Source of the DNA: Leptolyngbyaceae cyanobacterium MAG.088
GTDB taxonomy: Bacteria > Cyanobacteriota > Cyanobacteriia > Phormidesmidales > Phormidesmidaceae
Assembly: GCA_019634055.1 (NCBI GenBank)
Contig: JAHQVZ010000212.1
Coordinates: forward strand, 1-40,304
DNA: 40,304 nucleotides
Direction: 5' to 3'
Shown: piece by piece, positions 6,611 to 15,086 of the stretch
Position numbering within the stretch: position 1 is the stretch's first letter
Layout: the number at the start of each line of letters is the position of its first letter
The notes under the pieces: model-generated
Database searches by the model: none
Told to the model about the DNA's origin: nothing
What the model saw: the letters and a program-made list of their open reading frames with translations, nothing else
Program-made: the position numbers and the translations under genes

Positions 6611-9484
6611 TTAATCAGATGCACTAGGCACCGGATCGATGCTAGAGACTGAATCTGTTGCACTAGGCATTGAGACTGCTTTAGTTGAAACCATCGCCTG
6701 CAGTTCATCTAGAAGCTCTTGACGATTCAGATCGGCCTTTTGATACACCCGTGCGACACCTTCTAGCTGTTGCTGATCGCTTACCGTTAGTGCCTTAGCC
6801 GTTACCACGATGACAGGTATATCCTGCCAATCGGGATTATGCCGCAACACTTGAATAAACTCAAACCCATCCATTTCAGGCATCATCAAATCCAATACAA
6901 TCAGATTAGGTCGACTGGCATCTAGATACTCCAATGCTTGCCGTCCATTAGATGCTAATTCAACAGTCCAATCTTGCCGTTGCAAGAAGCGCCCCATGAT
7001 CTCCCGTGCATTTACATCATCTTCCACCACTAAAATTTTCGGAGAAATTTGATCTACAAGGTGAGTTTCTAAAACACTTAGCAAACGCTTACGGTCAATG
7101 GGCTTAGTCAGGTAATCAGCCGCTCCTAAGCTATGTCCCATAGGGCGGTCATCTACAATGGACAATAGAATGACTGGAATTTCAGCGACAACTGGCATTT
7201 CTTTGAGTTGTCTTAGCACTGACCAGCCATCCATTTGTGGCATCATTACATCCAGAGTAATAGCATCAGGCAGGATGTCACCGGCTAAAGCCAAACCCTC
7301 TTCACCACTACCTGCACAAACAACATCATAGCCAGCCTCATCTAGAGAACGACGTAAAATTTCGCGGGCATCATCATCATCATCAATGACTAAAACCGTC
7401 TGTTTTAACGATTGAGTCATGGGCAAACTCTTCGATTTTCCGATTTCACTGTCAGCAGAAGAAAGGGGTGGGGCAAAAAATGCTTTACCCTTGGGATTAA
7501 CTGAGTGTACTGTCTGAGGAATGACTAGTGAAAATGTAGTTCCTTGACCGTGGGAGCTTTCTACAGAGATATCACCCCCCATCATGTTAATAAACTGCTT
7601 GGTGATTGCTAACCCTAAGCCAGTGCCACCATATTTACGAGTCGTAGATGCATCAGCTTGGGTAAAGGCGTCAAAAATCTTTTCTATTTGATCCTTTTTC
7701 ATCCCAATACCTGTATCACTGACGATAAAACGGAACCAATGTCCGTCGTATATGGAACTATCAACCGTAGGGATTTGTTCAACCGTTAAGGTAATATCTC
7801 CATCTTCAGTAAACTTACAAGCATTGCTTAGCAAATTAAACAAACTTTGCCGTAGTTTTGTTTGATCTGCATGAAGGTCACCGATATCATCGGGACAGAA
7901 AATTGACAAATGATTGTTATTCTTATGGGCAACAGGAACAATTGTGCCAGAGATATCATCCACCATGTCTCTAATGGCAAAGTTTTCCATAAATAGCTCC
8001 ATGCGTCCCGCTTCGATTTTAGACAGGTCTAGCACCGAGTTAATAAGGCCTAGCAAATGTTTGCCTGCACCTTGAATTTTTTGCAGATCAGGAACAAAAT
8101 CATCTTCACCAACATCGGCCGCTTCTTCTTCCAACATTTCGCTATAACCAATAATGGCATTGAGCGGTGTGCGCAACTCATGACTCATGTTGGCTAAAAA
8201 CTCACTTTTAGAGCGGTTGGCATCTTCCGCTTTAACCCGTGCTTCTTCCGCCTCTTCCATGGCTTTCATGAGCTTGGTTGTACGGTCTTGTACACGACTA
8301 TCTAAATCTCGATTTAGCTCCATTAACTGTTCTTCAGCCTGTTTTCGTTCAGTAATATCTTGCAAGAATAGAGATAATCCATCACGACCGGGATACCCCC
8401 TTACCTGTAACCATCGCTGTGTGGGAGCATAATAGGTTTCGAAACTAACAACCGTTTGCTCGGTCAACGCCCGACGATATTGCTGCTGATAGCGAGTCCC
8501 CAAGGATTCAGGAAAAATCTTCCAGAAGTCCTGATCCAAAAGCCCCTGAATACTACGTTTTAACACTTCAGCCGCCTGAGCATTGACATAGGTTACCTTC
8601 CAACTTCGGTCAACGGCAACAAAGGCGTCGGTAATATTTTCCAGTACACTGGTGGTACGCTGACTAGACTGCCGTAAGCGAGTAACTAACCCATAGGCAA
8701 CTGCAATAATGATGGCTAGTAAAACTAAATAGGCTGCGGTTTTATAGATAGCAGTCCGTTCAAACGCTGCTTGACTTGAGCGATCAAAGGTAGTTTCTAA
8801 CTCACGAATATTGTTAGTCAGCGGTAGATTTACAACCTGATCTAGCAGTGCATCAGCAGATGGCTTATTATCTAGCACTGTTTGAGTTAGTTGAACAACC
8901 AGAGCCACGTCTTCTGAACTATAAAACTCCCCCGCACTGAGTTTAGACTTAACCGTATTCAATTCCTGCTCAATCGTAGTCACCAACTGTTCATCGGTGG
9001 CCATGATGTAGATCAACACATCATCAATTAACTGCTCAAGGTCTGCATTATTGGTATCTTTCAGTTTATTAACTAACCCAGGCAGTTGCATTAAGGCTTT
9101 TTTTAGTTCCCCATTAGTCGCCTGAAACTGTTTAACAAGTTCAGTTTTCTCTTCTAAAAGCTGAGCATCACGGCTAATTAGGCTTTGTAGCTGTTCGCGA
9201 TCTTCTTTTACTACAAAACTGGGAATTTCCTGTGCCAACTCTTGCTGAATGACTAACTCTTCAGCTAAGGCTTCTTCCAGTGGCTCATCATTTTTTAGGA
9301 GTGTGTAGCGTTCTTTAAGTATCGCCAGCTCAACTTCTGTATCGCTTTCAACTTGGCTAGCAATTAAATCTGCATATTCTTGATACTGACTAACGTCAAC
9401 GGATTTTCCTTTAACCCCTAAAAATCCTAATAGCAGAAGAGCTGTAGCTACACCTGCTCCTTTAAATAGAGAGTCTCGATTCAC
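6611..9484 (-). CDS. Hybrid sensor histidine kinase: TM - DAHL-like helical sensor - TM - PAS - HisKA - HATPase_c - REC - REC
   Basis: TM helices near residues 10-25 and 245-265; PAS-like segment [25 protein letters not shown]; His[26 protein letters not shown]-box GTGLGLAITKQF; two REC domains. Confidence 0.92.
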   Translation of the reverse strand: MNRDSLFKGAGVATALLLLGFLGVKGKSVDVSQYQEYADLIASQVESDTEVELAILKERYTLLKNDEPLEEALAEELVIQQELAQEIPSFVVKEDREQLQSLISRDAQLLEEKTELVKQFQATNGELKKALMQLPGLVNKLKDTNNADLEQLIDDVLIYIMATDEQLVTTIEQELNTVKSKLSAGEFYSSEDVALVVQLTQTVLDNKPSADALLDQVVNLPLTNNIRELETTFDRSSQAAFERTAIYKTAAYLVLLAIIIAVAYGLVTRLRQSSQRTTSVLENITDAFVAVDRSWKVTYVNAQAAEVLKRSIQGLLDQDFWKIFPESLGTRYQQQYRRALTEQTVVSFETYYAPTQRWLQVRGYPGRDGLSLFLQDITERKQAEEQLMELNRDLDSRVQDRTTKLMKAMEEAEEARVKAEDANRSKSEFLANMSHELRTPLNAIIGYSEMLEEEAADVGEDDFVPDLQKIQGAGKHLLGLINSVLDLSKIEAGRMELFMENFAIRDMVDDISGTIVPVAHKNNNHLSIFCPDDIGDLHADQTKLRQSLFNLLSNACKFTEDGDITLTVEQIPTVDSSIYDGHWFRFIVSDTGIGMKKDQIEKIFDAFTQADASTTRKYGGTGLGLAITKQFINMMGGDISVESSHGQGTTFSLVIPQTVHSVNPKGKAFFAPPLSSADSEIGKSKSLPMTQSLKQTVLVIDDDDDAREILRRSLDEAGYDVVCAGSGEEGLALAGDILPDAITLDVMMPQMDGWSVLRQLKEMPVVAEIPVILLSIVDDRPMGHSLGAADYLTKPIDRKRLLSVLETHLVDQISPKILVVEDDVNAREIMGRFLQRQDWTVELASNGRQALEYLDASRPNLIVLDLMMPEMDGFEFIQVLRHNPDWQDIPVIVVTAKALTVSDQQQLEGVARVYQKADLNRQELLDELQAMVSTKAVSMPSATDSVSSIDPVPSASD

Positions 9485-10041: not shown

Positions 10042-12855
10042 TTAGCCTGCTACTGGGGTGCTATCGGCTTTGGCGAACACAAGGTTGCGTGCGTCATTCA
10101 GCAGTTCCTGTCGATTGAAATCAGCTTTTTGATACACCCGAACAACACCATCTAGACGTTGTTGATCCTTAACAGTAAGGGTTTTTGCGGTCACAATAAT
10201 GATCGGAATATTTCTCCAGTCTGGTGTTTGGCGTAGAATCTCAATAAATTCAAACCCATCCATACCAGGCATCATCAGATCTAACACAATTAAATCGGGA
10301 ACCGTAGTTTTGACATAGTCCAGAGCTTGCTGGCCATTTGTAGCCAGTACAACAGTCCAATCATGCTGCTGTAGAAAACGTCCCATAATTTCTCTAGCGT
10401 TGACATCATCCTCAACGACGAGAATCTTGGCAGTTTTTGGTTCAGGGATTTGGGCATCTAAGATACTGAGTAAACGAACGTGATCAATAGGTTTAAGCAT
10501 ATGGTCAGTAATACCAAGTTGATATGCTCGGTTAGGCTCTTCGGCCAGAGATAATAAAATGACAGGTACTTGAGATAGCGTTGGCATAGTCTTAAGTTCC
10601 TGTAAGATGCTCCATCCGCTCTGCTCAGGCAACATCATATCCAGAATAATTGCGTCGGGGAGCAGTTCGTTAGCTAACACTAACCCTTGCTGTCCATCAA
10701 CGGCACATACAACGTTGTAACCGGAATTTGATAAATGACCATGTAAGCTTTCACAGGATTCTGGATCATTATCAATAACTAGAATTGTCCTTTCTAAATC
10801 TTGGCCTGATAATTTATGAATTGTTGAAATAGGTTCTCTCTCAATTAAGCGAACAGGGGGAGCAAAGAAGGTTTGATCTGATGGTTTGTTTGGTTTGACT
10901 GTACGCGGGAGGGATAGAGTAAACGTTGTGCCTTGACCATAGATGCTGTCGACAGTTACGTCTCCAGCCATCATGGCAATGAATTGCTTGGTGATGGTTA
11001 AGCCTAAGCCAGTACCACCATACTTGCGCGTAGTCGATGTATCTGCCTGGGTAAATGCCTGAAAAACTTTTCCCATTTGTTCAGGCGTCATGCCAATGCC
11101 AGTATCAGCAACAATAAATTTCAGCCAACTGTTTTCTTGTTCTTGAGGATGGAATTGTTCAACTGTCAGGGTAATGTTGCCGTTTTCAGTAAACTTGCAG
11201 GCATTACTCAATAGATTTATCAAACTTTGCCGCAATTTAACCTGGTCTGCATACATTACTCCAATGTCATTAGGACAAGACATCAATAGCTGATTGCCAT
11301 TTTTTTGAGCTAAGGGTTGAATAGTGCCGATAATCTCATCGATTATAGTGTTAATGCAGATATCTTCTAGGAAAAGCTCCATTCGACCTGCCTCGATTTT
11401 GGATAAATCGAGTACCGAATTAATCAGTCCTAAAAGATGTTTTCCTGCACCTTGAATTTTTTGTAAATCAGGTACAAACTCCTCTTCCCCAATGCTCGTG
11501 ACATCTTCTTCTAGCATTTCGCTATAGCCGATGATGGCATTAAGCGGCGTCCGTAGTTCATGACTCATGTTGGCGAGAAACTCACTTTTAGAACGGTTGG
11601 CATCCTCTGCTTTTATTCGTGCTGTTTCTGCATCTTCCATGGCACTTGCTAATTGAGCTGTGCGGTCTTTAACTCGATTATCCAAATCGCGATTAAGCTC
11701 AATCAGTTGTTCTTCAGCTTGTTTTCGCTCCGTAAAATCTTGTAAAAAGATGGATAGACCATCGGTTCCTGGGTAGCCACGGACCATCAACCAACGTTCG
11801 GTGGGCTCATAATAGGTTTCAAAGCTGACGACATTTAGATTGGTAGCAACTGCTTGACGATAGTATTCGGTAAAGCGTTTGCCGAGGGATTCGGGTAAAA
11901 CTTTCCAAAAATCTTGCCCTAACAAACCTGACTGCTCATATTTAAGAATATCGGCAGCCTGAGCATTGACGTAGGTAATCGACCATTTACGATCTACTGC
12001 AATAAAGGCATCCGTTATGCTTTCTAAGACCTTGACTGTTTTCTGGCTGGATTTTTTTAGACGATTGATAACCCAAAGAGCGACTATCCCCAGGCTAGTA
12101 ATAACCAATATGTAGATAAAGTTTCGATAGATGGCAATGCGTGTACGTGTAGCTTGTTGGATAGCATCAAACTGCTGTTCTAGAGCTCTAATATTATTGA
12201 TCAGAGGTAGATCAAATACTTGAGTAACCAACTCGTCAGCTGCTGGTTTGTTGTCTAAAACTAGTTGAACCGTCTGCTCAAGTTGACGCTGTGTTCCAGA
12301 GTTGCTACCCAGTTGTATTTCTAAACGGCTAAGCTTTGTTTTTATAATAGCGATAAGCTTTTTATCACTGGTGATGGCGTAGAGGGAAAGGTCATCTAAT
12401 AGGGCCTCAACTTCAAGTCTTAGATTGCCATTTAGCCCATTGAGTAAATTAGCTTCCTGGGCTAGCGCTGTCCTGAGCTCGGCGTGGTGAACTTCAAGTT
12501 GTTCAATCAGTTGTCGTTTTTCGTCTAATAATTCAGCATTAAAGGCGAGCTGTCTTTGTAAGCGCGTTGTATCTTTTTTGGATACGGAAATGGGAATTTG
12601 CTCAGTGAGCTGAACTTGAACTTTTTCGGTGTCAAGCAGGGCTGTGTTTAGAGATTGGCCATTTTGTGAAATGGTATAGCGAATATTTTGTAGCGCTAGT
12701 TGTACGGCTGACTCATTGACCAGCTGATCTGAGATTAACGCGCTGTAACTACTATATTGATTGAAATCAACAGCAAAGTTTTTAAGGCCTAAAATGGCCA
12801 GAACTGAGAGTGCAGCGACAGCGGGTACACGCTTTAAAAATTGCTTTCGTCTCAC
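10042..12855 (-). CDS. Hybrid sensor histidine kinase, paralogue of 6611..9484 with the same domain order
   Basis: Near-identical HisKA stretch ([30 protein letters not shown]), [12 protein letters not shown], two C-terminal REC domains, matching N-terminal helical sensor ([33 protein letters not shown]). Confidence 0.92.
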
Positions 12856-13400: not shown

Positions 13401-14264
13401 CTAGGACACTAAATTAAATGAATGTTGTGGCTTGATGGAGCGACCAACAGCCTGTGCTATAAGCTCTAGACTGTCCACAAGGTCTGCCATGGCCCCTAAA
13501 CTAATGGTCTGTCTGGCATCGCTTATGGACCTGTCTGGGTCTGGGTGGCATTCAATGATCAAACCATCCGCACCAGCTGCGATCGCAGCCCGAGCTAAGG
13601 CCGCCACCAGTTCCCGCTTACCCGTGGCATGGCTTGGATCAACTAAAACAGGCAAATGGGTAATTTGCTTAAGGGCGACCACAGCCCCTAGATCAAGCAC
13701 GTTACGCGTGTAGGTATCAAAGCTACGAATACCACGTTCGCACAGAATAATATTAGGGTTGCCATGGCTGGCAATATATTCTGCTGCCATGACGAACTCG
13801 GTGACAGTTGCCGCTAACCCGCGTTTTAGTAAAACGGGTTTATCCACATCACCAAGGGCCTTTAACAAATCAAAATTCTGCATATTACGACTGCCTACCT
13901 GCAGCACATCAGCATGGGGAGCTAGCTTTTCAATCTGACTAATAGCCATGACTTCGGTAATTACGGGTACCCCATACCGCTGACGTATTGCTGAGAGAAT
14001 GTCTAACCCAACCTCACCTAGGCCCTGAAATGCGTAAGGGGAGGTACGAGGCTTATAGATCCCCCCGCGTAACCCCTGCAAGGGAAGTTTCGCTTCGGCA
14101 ATAGCTTCCATCTGAGCCATACTCTCGATGGAACAGGGTCCACCCACAATGAAGAGAGCTTTTCCGCCGACTGTGATCGCAGGTGTATTCTCAGTAGCTG
14201 GAGCGATTTCAATTTCACTGGTGTGATCGTTATGGAGTTTGGTGACTAGTTTGGCGTCCTTCAT
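13401..14264 (-). CDS. aroF: 3-deoxy-7-phosphoheptulonate (DAHP) synthase
   Basis: FIVGGPCSIESMAQ, GGIYKPRTSPYAFQGLG, LQVGSRNMQNFDLL, PVLLKRG, ILCERGIRSF and DPSHATGKREL are diagnostic of the AroF/KDO8P-synthase-like DAHP synthase class. Confidence 0.95.
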   Translation of the reverse strand: MKDAKLVTKLHNDHTSEIEIAPATENTPAITVGGKALFIVGGPCSIESMAQMEAIAEAKLPLQGLRGGIYKPRTSPYAFQGLGEVGLDILSAIRQRYGVPVITEVMAISQIEKLAPHADVLQVGSRNMQNFDLLKALGDVDKPVLLKRGLAATVTEFVMAAEYIASHGNPNIILCERGIRSFDTYTRNVLDLGAVVALKQITHLPVLVDPSHATGKRELVAALARAAIAAGADGLIIECHPDPDRSISDARQTISLGAMADLVDSLELIAQAVGRSIKPQHSFNLVS

Positions 14265-14300: not shown

Positions 14301-14326
14301 GCCCGTAGCCTTTTGGGGCTCCGGGC
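14301..14326 (-). terminator. Attenuator terminator 2 in the aroF 5' leader
   Basis: Minus strand GCCCGgAGCC-ccaaaa-GGCTaCGGGC followed by TTTTTTGTTTTTT (14300-14288), ending about 24 nt before the aroF ATG: stem, loop and U-tract of an intrinsic terminator. Confidence 0.9.
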
Positions 14327-14349: not shown

Positions 14350-14412
14350 CTACCTACCCGGTGGTGGCGTAAAAAAGTAAAAAGTAAATTGCCAGCTGTA
14401 GCAGACGATCAT
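14350..14412 (-). CDS. Predicted aroF leader peptide 2: MIVCYSWQFTFYFFTPPPGR
   Basis: ATG ATC GTC TGC TAC AGC TGG CAA TTT ACT TTT TAC TTT TTT ACG CCA CCA CCG GGT AGG TAG; 7 of 20 residues aromatic; lies between terminator 1 and terminator 2. Confidence 0.78.
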   Translation of the reverse strand: MIVCYSWQFTFYFFTPPPGR

Positions 14413-14463
14413 GGTGGTCAAAATAAATAGTTAAATCCGGGCAGATATTGGTGAATAAAACAA

Positions 14464-14489
14464 AACCGCAGAGCTTACACCCTGCGGTT
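14464..14489 (-). terminator. Attenuator terminator 1 in the aroF 5' leader
   Basis: Minus strand AACCGCAG-ggtgtaagct-CTGCGGTT followed by TTGTTTTATT (14463-14454). Confidence 0.85.
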
Positions 14490-14517
14490 CACCGGCTTCC
14501 CATGCTAGTGCTAGGGT

Positions 14518-14568
14518 TCATTGCCGGTGAACCTGACTAAACCAAAAGTAAAAAAACTGGTGCTGCAT
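14518..14568 (-). CDS. Predicted aroF leader peptide 1: MQHQFFYFWFSQVHRQ
   Basis: ATG CAG CAC CAG TTT TTT TAC TTT TGG TTT AGT CAG GTT CAC CGG CAA TGA; six consecutive aromatic codons (Phe Phe Tyr Phe Trp Phe) just upstream of terminator 1. Confidence 0.88.
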   Translation of the reverse strand: MQHQFFYFWFSQVHRQ

Positions 14569-14610: not shown

Positions 14611-14639
14611 ACGGTAACGTGCAAACTCTAAACCGTCAA
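14611..14639 (-). promoter_or_regulatory. Candidate aroF promoter
   Basis: Minus strand TTGACG - 17 nt - TACCGT (TAnnnT-type -10), about 45 nt upstream of the leader 1 ATG. Confidence 0.4.
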
Positions 14640-14696: not shown

Positions 14697-15086
14697 CTAT
14701 TTCACTGCGATGCATTCAATCTCGACTAACACATCTTTTGGCAAACGGGCCACCTCAACACAGGCCCTAGCGGGGGCTGTTGTTTCATCAAAGTAGGTGG
14801 AATAGACACCATTCATGGTGGCAAAGTCATTCATATTTTTTAAGAAAACGGACGTTTTAACCACATCGGCCATGGTGACTCCGGCGGCTGCCAAAACAGC
14901 CTTCAGATTATCCAGGCACTGTTTAGTTTGAGCGGCCACATCGCCTTCACCCACCAAAGACCCGCTGCGTGGATCAAGGGCTACTTGGCCTGATGCAAAT
15001 ACCATTTCCCCTGAAGCAACAACAGCCTGATTGTAAGGACCAACGGGAGCAGGAGCCTGATCAGTTTGAACGATACGACGAACCAT
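14697..15086 (-). CDS. ridA: RidA family reactive enamine/imine deaminase
   Basis: VQTDQAPAPVGPYNQAVVASGEMVFASGQVALDP...TSVFLKNMNDFATMNGVY...PARACVEVARLPKDVLVEIECIA. Confidence 0.95.
   Translation of the reverse strand: MVRRIVQTDQAPAPVGPYNQAVVASGEMVFASGQVALDPRSGSLVGEGDVAAQTKQCLDNLKAVLAAAGVTMADVVKTSVFLKNMNDFATMNGVYSTYFDETTAPARACVEVARLPKDVLVEIECIAVK

Follow-up and report, generated by a model that had tools for sequence, protein, structure and literature searches.

Predicted tandem leader-peptide attenuators upstream of a DAHP synthase gene in Cyanobacteria

Background

Attenuation by translation of a leader peptide is textbook knowledge in Proteobacteria and Actinobacteria. In the E. coli trp and pheA attenuators, a short leader ORF with many codons for the sensed amino acid is followed by an antiterminator that competes with an intrinsic terminator, and the position of the ribosome decides between them.

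Outside these classical cases, a few described systems come close to the arrangement reported here. The Corynebacterium glutamicum aroF gene, encoding DAHP synthase, is preceded by one putative leader peptide containing Phe-Tyr-Phe (PMC4046766); the uORFC-13-1 motif upstream of Acholeplasma aroF joins one uORF with Phe codon(s) to one terminator stem before the DAHP synthase gene, and its 24 examples come from Acholeplasma and environmental sequences only (PMC8632094); and Salmonella mgtCBR carries tandem attenuators, with two leader ORFs in one 5′ leader that respond to different signals, ATP and proline (PMC3641672). For cyanobacteria, a 2016 paper stated that reliable data for attenuation were absent (PMC4833913).

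The locus described here lies on the minus strand of a 40,304-nt stretch of a Leptolyngbyaceae cyanobacterium genome (the whole of this stretch is called the window below), where two tandem leader and terminator units are flanked by a RidA-family gene (14697-15086) and a DAHP synthase gene (13401-14264). It resembles E. coli trp and pheA in having a leader ORF and a competing antiterminator and terminator, with control by the ribosome predicted, but differs from them in that i) the antiterminator has its 5′ arm within the leader ORF, ending shortly ahead of the stop codon; ii) there is no firmly supported protector stem, and the naked RNA is predicted to be antiterminated; and iii) two modules are arranged in series, in the phylum Cyanobacteria. 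By description it is also set apart from C. glutamicum aroF (another phylum, and one putative leader rather than two), from uORFC-13-1 (the cyanobacterial system has two leaders and two terminators), and from mgtCBR (the same three amino acids are encoded in both cyanobacterial leaders). A search of the open-licence literature for cyanobacterial, DAHP synthase, or tandem leader-peptide attenuation, with most subscription papers and preprints outside its scope, found no description of this element. The kind of mechanism is already known from the trp and phe leaders and the mgtCBR tandem attenuators; what appears to be new is the phylum, the tandem layout with a single kind of signal, and a predicted default-ON state of the naked RNA.

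Results

The gene downstream of the two modules (13401-14264, minus strand) encodes a 287-residue type I-beta DAHP synthase (3-deoxy-7-phosphoheptulonate synthase), with profile matches to NF006421 (E 1.7e-110) and TIGR01361 (E 1.1e-100) that both exceed the cut-off; it belongs to the pathway of the amino acids that would be sensed, and the same linkage is seen in relatives. The closest named relatives of the source genome are Leptolyngbya sp. PCC 7375, Adonisia turfae, and Leptothoe species. The source genome has another gene of the DAHP synthase family (PF00793; locus L142, G000:C52:3641-4525); no leader with an aromatic run is seen in the 450 nt ahead of that gene. Downstream of the DAHP synthase gene in the window, two large hybrid sensor histidine kinases that match similar families follow one another (6611-9484 and 10042-12855, minus strand).

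Leader ORF 1 (14518-14568, minus strand; ATG at 14568, TGA at 14520-14518) encodes MQHQFFYFWFSQVHRQ. The consensus of 77 sequences is ..YFYFWF..VHRE-stop, with an aromatic run that is kept in frame; in the window, the presumptive sensing codons are codons 5-10 (FFYFWF, 14539-14556). Among 36 distinct 18-nt segments, the reading frame contains a mean of 5.4 aromatic codons out of 6, compared with 2.0 and 1.25 in the other two frames, and codon use within the run varies among relatives (TAC and TAT are about equally frequent, and both TTT and TTC occur). The frame of leader 1 thus looks to be under selection. A promoter-like pair, TTGACG (14639-14634) and TACCGT (14616-14611) with a 17-nt spacer, is found 42 nt ahead of leader 1 (14611-14639, minus strand), and the motif TTGACn-N17-TAnnnT recurs upstream of leader 1 in 51 of 75 loci as opposed to 0.4% of shuffles; no obvious Shine-Dalgarno sequence precedes leader 1 in the window.

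The earlier note on this DNA had described an 11-nt perfect complementarity between the end of leader 1 and a downstream segment that overlaps the terminator. The complementarity is real, and the 3′ arm (segment C, GCCGGTGAACC, 14496-14486) is placed as the note had it; the 5′ arm (segment A, GGTTCACCGGC) was placed one nucleotide off and occupies 14533-14523 rather than 14532-14522, running from the third base of codon 12 to the first base of codon 16. The overlap also holds, segment C sharing AACC (14489-14486) with the terminator 5′ arm AACCGCAG (14489-14482). Terminator 1 (14454-14490, minus strand) is a hairpin of 12 pairs with a loop of 4 followed by a T-rich tract; an independent terminator scan also finds the hairpin, at 14490-14463, so that an intrinsic terminator is present between leader 1 and the structural gene. 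Of 1000 dinucleotide shuffles of the 117-nt region, none contained a perfect inverted repeat of 11 nt, and the folded segment is stabler than shuffles (z = -3.6).

Both stems covary. In a MAFFT alignment of 49 loci made without structural guidance, 93.3% of antiterminator 1 cells are paired, with two-sided changes in 8 of 11 pairs, and 98.4% of terminator 1 cells are paired, with two-sided changes in 5 of 10 pairs; neither covariation score was matched by any of 500 shuffles. The two stems compete for the same bases, having alignment columns 86-90 in common. Within a single genus the antiterminator arms read CCGGC/GCCGG, CCGAC/GTCGG, CCAGC/GCTGG, and TCGGT/ACCGA, and at one locus (L076) a joint change runs through all three segments, GGTCC in A, GGACC in C, and GGTC in D, the segment that pairs with C in the terminator. 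In each of the 66 scorable loci, which carry the exact motif, the distance from the start of the antiterminator arm to the stop codon of leader 1 is exactly 13 nt.

Folding with ribosome footprint masks, which the earlier note had proposed as a check, switches as predicted both in the window and across species; the footprint limits were the usual E. coli values. Specifically, i) with the A site at codons 5-8, segment A is free and A:C forms (0.89); ii) with the A site at codon 9 the A:C stem is shortened, and at codon 10 or beyond the base of terminator 1 re-forms, stalling at W9-F10 freeing segment A only in part; iii) with the ribosome at the stop codon, terminator 1 alone remains (0.97), and the terminator is favored at this position in 74 of 74 species; and iv) with a stalled ribosome and the terminator 3′ arm not yet transcribed, which is the order of events that matters physically, the antiterminator forms in 76 of 76 species. 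Once the whole terminator is present, equilibrium folding with the ribosome on the first aromatic codons still favors the terminator in 17 of 74 species. Because A:C displaces only the lowest 4-5 bp of terminator 1, and the upper stem can coexist with A:C, antitermination may be incomplete. Taken with the covariation of both competing stems, the constrained folding backs the note's proposal that a ribosome stalled on the aromatic codons would free the antiterminator whereas a ribosome at the stop codon would permit termination.

Naked RNA from module 1 of the window folds as the antiterminator (0.98). Unless a protector hairpin has a kinetic effect, termination is therefore predicted to require translation, in contrast to E. 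coli trp. Overlooked in the earlier note, GGTTCA (14533-14528) in segment A can alternatively pair with TGAACC (segment B, 14515-14520, minus strand), which holds the stop codon of leader 1; this A:B pairing is conserved (91.5% paired) but shows no covariation in the alignment of relatives, and it was dropped as a claimed element. A second candidate, alignment columns 36-42 with 75-81, corresponds in many relatives to GGCGGTT:AACCGCC; about 73% of its cells are paired, and its 28 two-sided cells outnumber those of every one of 500 shuffles, which gives it partial support in the alignment. Either hairpin could make untranslated RNA terminate, in the manner of the 1:2, 2:3, and 3:4 stems of E. 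coli trp. We regard such a protector, a refinement of ribosome-mediated attenuation more than a full rival to it, as rather unlikely: the pairing frequencies of both candidates and the two-sided changes of the second speak for it, but A:B does not covary, and naked RNA folded before the terminator 3′ arm has been made adopts the antiterminator in 75 of 76 species.

Module 2 is built on the same plan as module 1, with a different sequence. Leader ORF 2 (MIVCYSWQFTFYFFTPPPGR, 14350-14412, minus strand) follows module 1 in tandem; the 5′ arm of antiterminator 2 (segment A2, CCGGGTA, 14355-14361, minus strand) lies near its end, as indicated by covariation analysis and folding; and terminator 2 (14301-14326, minus strand) consists of arms at 14326-14317 and 14310-14301 followed by a T-tract. 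Antiterminator 2 is 86.5% paired and terminator 2 is 92.5% paired, and both compete for one segment. The covariation of terminator 2, examined in 48 loci, provides solid comparative support; antiterminator 2 outscores every shuffle and has more two-sided cells than any of them, but its count of covarying pairs does not stand above them all. The switch of the window's module 2 is less clean in folding than that of module 1: in the full-length RNA, the antiterminator wins only with the A site at Y12. Leader 2 (14412-14350) ends in PPPGR in the Leptothoe group (TPPPGR in most members) and mostly in SG in other cyanobacteria. Three prolines in a row may in themselves be enough to slow the ribosome, in an EF-P dependent manner, and a second signal could be added in this way.

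A covariance model of module 1 has a single match in the source genome, with no second copy, and matches 150 of 393 Cyanobacteriia genomes, once each; among sampled genomes with a close ortholog of this DAHP synthase, 145 of 149 have module 1 and 149 of 149 have module 1 or module 2. Since the models derive from sequences of this same class, these counts demonstrate linkage and spread rather than independent discovery. Inspection of 30 module 1 matches showed each of them immediately ahead of DAHP synthase, with leader 1 and leader 2 both present. Five genomes, G151 and G039 among them, have a module 1 match without a full-length DAHP synthase match; in G039 the DAHP synthase match is split over two contigs. 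In G151 (locus L145, G151:C48:72600-74400), the one of the five whose locus was inspected, module 1 runs into a truncated remnant of DAHP synthase that lacks the start of the gene, and module 2 is absent; this is a decayed copy of the system. Three loci have module 1 only (L144, L147, and L148), one has module 2 only (L149), and in another (L146) module 1 has diverged beyond recognition by the model while keeping a similar layout. The one-module genomes and the diverged locus together suggest that each module may be a self-contained unit.

Discussion

We conclude, with a probability of about 0.92, that module 1 is a ribosome-mediated transcription attenuator which, together with module 2, sets DAHP synthase expression according to the supply of charged tRNA-Phe, tRNA-Tyr, and tRNA-Trp. 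Sequence analysis supplies the alternative stems and their covariation, the conserved aromatic frame, the fixed geometry relative to the stop codon, and the linkage to DAHP synthase; we infer translation of the leaders, ribosome stalling, the efficiency of termination, and the response to the amino acids. RNA polymerase would start about 35 nt upstream of leader 1. When aromatic aminoacyl-tRNAs are plentiful, the ribosome would reach the stop codon and cover segment A, leaving C free to pair with D, and transcription would end; when an aromatic amino acid is short, the ribosome would stall in the FFYFWF run and A would pair with C as C emerges, blocking the base of terminator 1 and allowing the polymerase to proceed to leader 2, where the same test would be repeated ahead of the DAHP synthase gene.

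Attenuation might instead be independent of the leaders, with a ligand, a tRNA, or an RNA-binding protein choosing between A:C and C:D. The competition between the two structures is as expected on this account, and since naked RNA strongly favors the antiterminator, a factor other than the ribosome could drive termination; but the element matches no Rfam family at the gathering score, the sole match at a relaxed threshold (E <= 1) being a weak, partial tmRNA match on the opposite strand (E 0.018), and this account would leave unexplained both the frame of the aromatic codons and the constant distance of 13 nt to the stop codon, so that we consider it highly improbable. Still less credible is the proposal that the short ORFs encode conserved micropeptides with functions of their own and that the hairpins are ordinary terminators, for although both leaders keep their frame throughout the class, only the aromatic run and the codons of the antiterminator arm are conserved while the N-termini vary, the last codons covary with a downstream non-coding segment, and leaders 1 and 2 have little in common beyond their aromatic richness.

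We wish to distinguish ribosome-mediated attenuation itself from a more specific proposal, which we advance tentatively and at somewhat less than even odds: that these are two attenuators for the same signal in series, that untranslated RNA is ON, and that translation itself is needed for termination. If this were true, the DAHP synthase gene would be opened by aromatic starvation and also by any failure of leader translation, for example under severe translational stress; the two gates would multiply the dynamic range; and Cyanobacteria would possess a class-wide, undocumented attenuation system whose default in the absence of translation is opposite to that of E. coli trp. The natural occurrence of one-module and two-module genomes makes the purpose of tandem attenuators testable. 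More generally, ribosome-mediated attenuation at this locus could explain how entry into the shikimate pathway is adjusted in these cyanobacteria, a point of relevance to engineering them for aromatic products.
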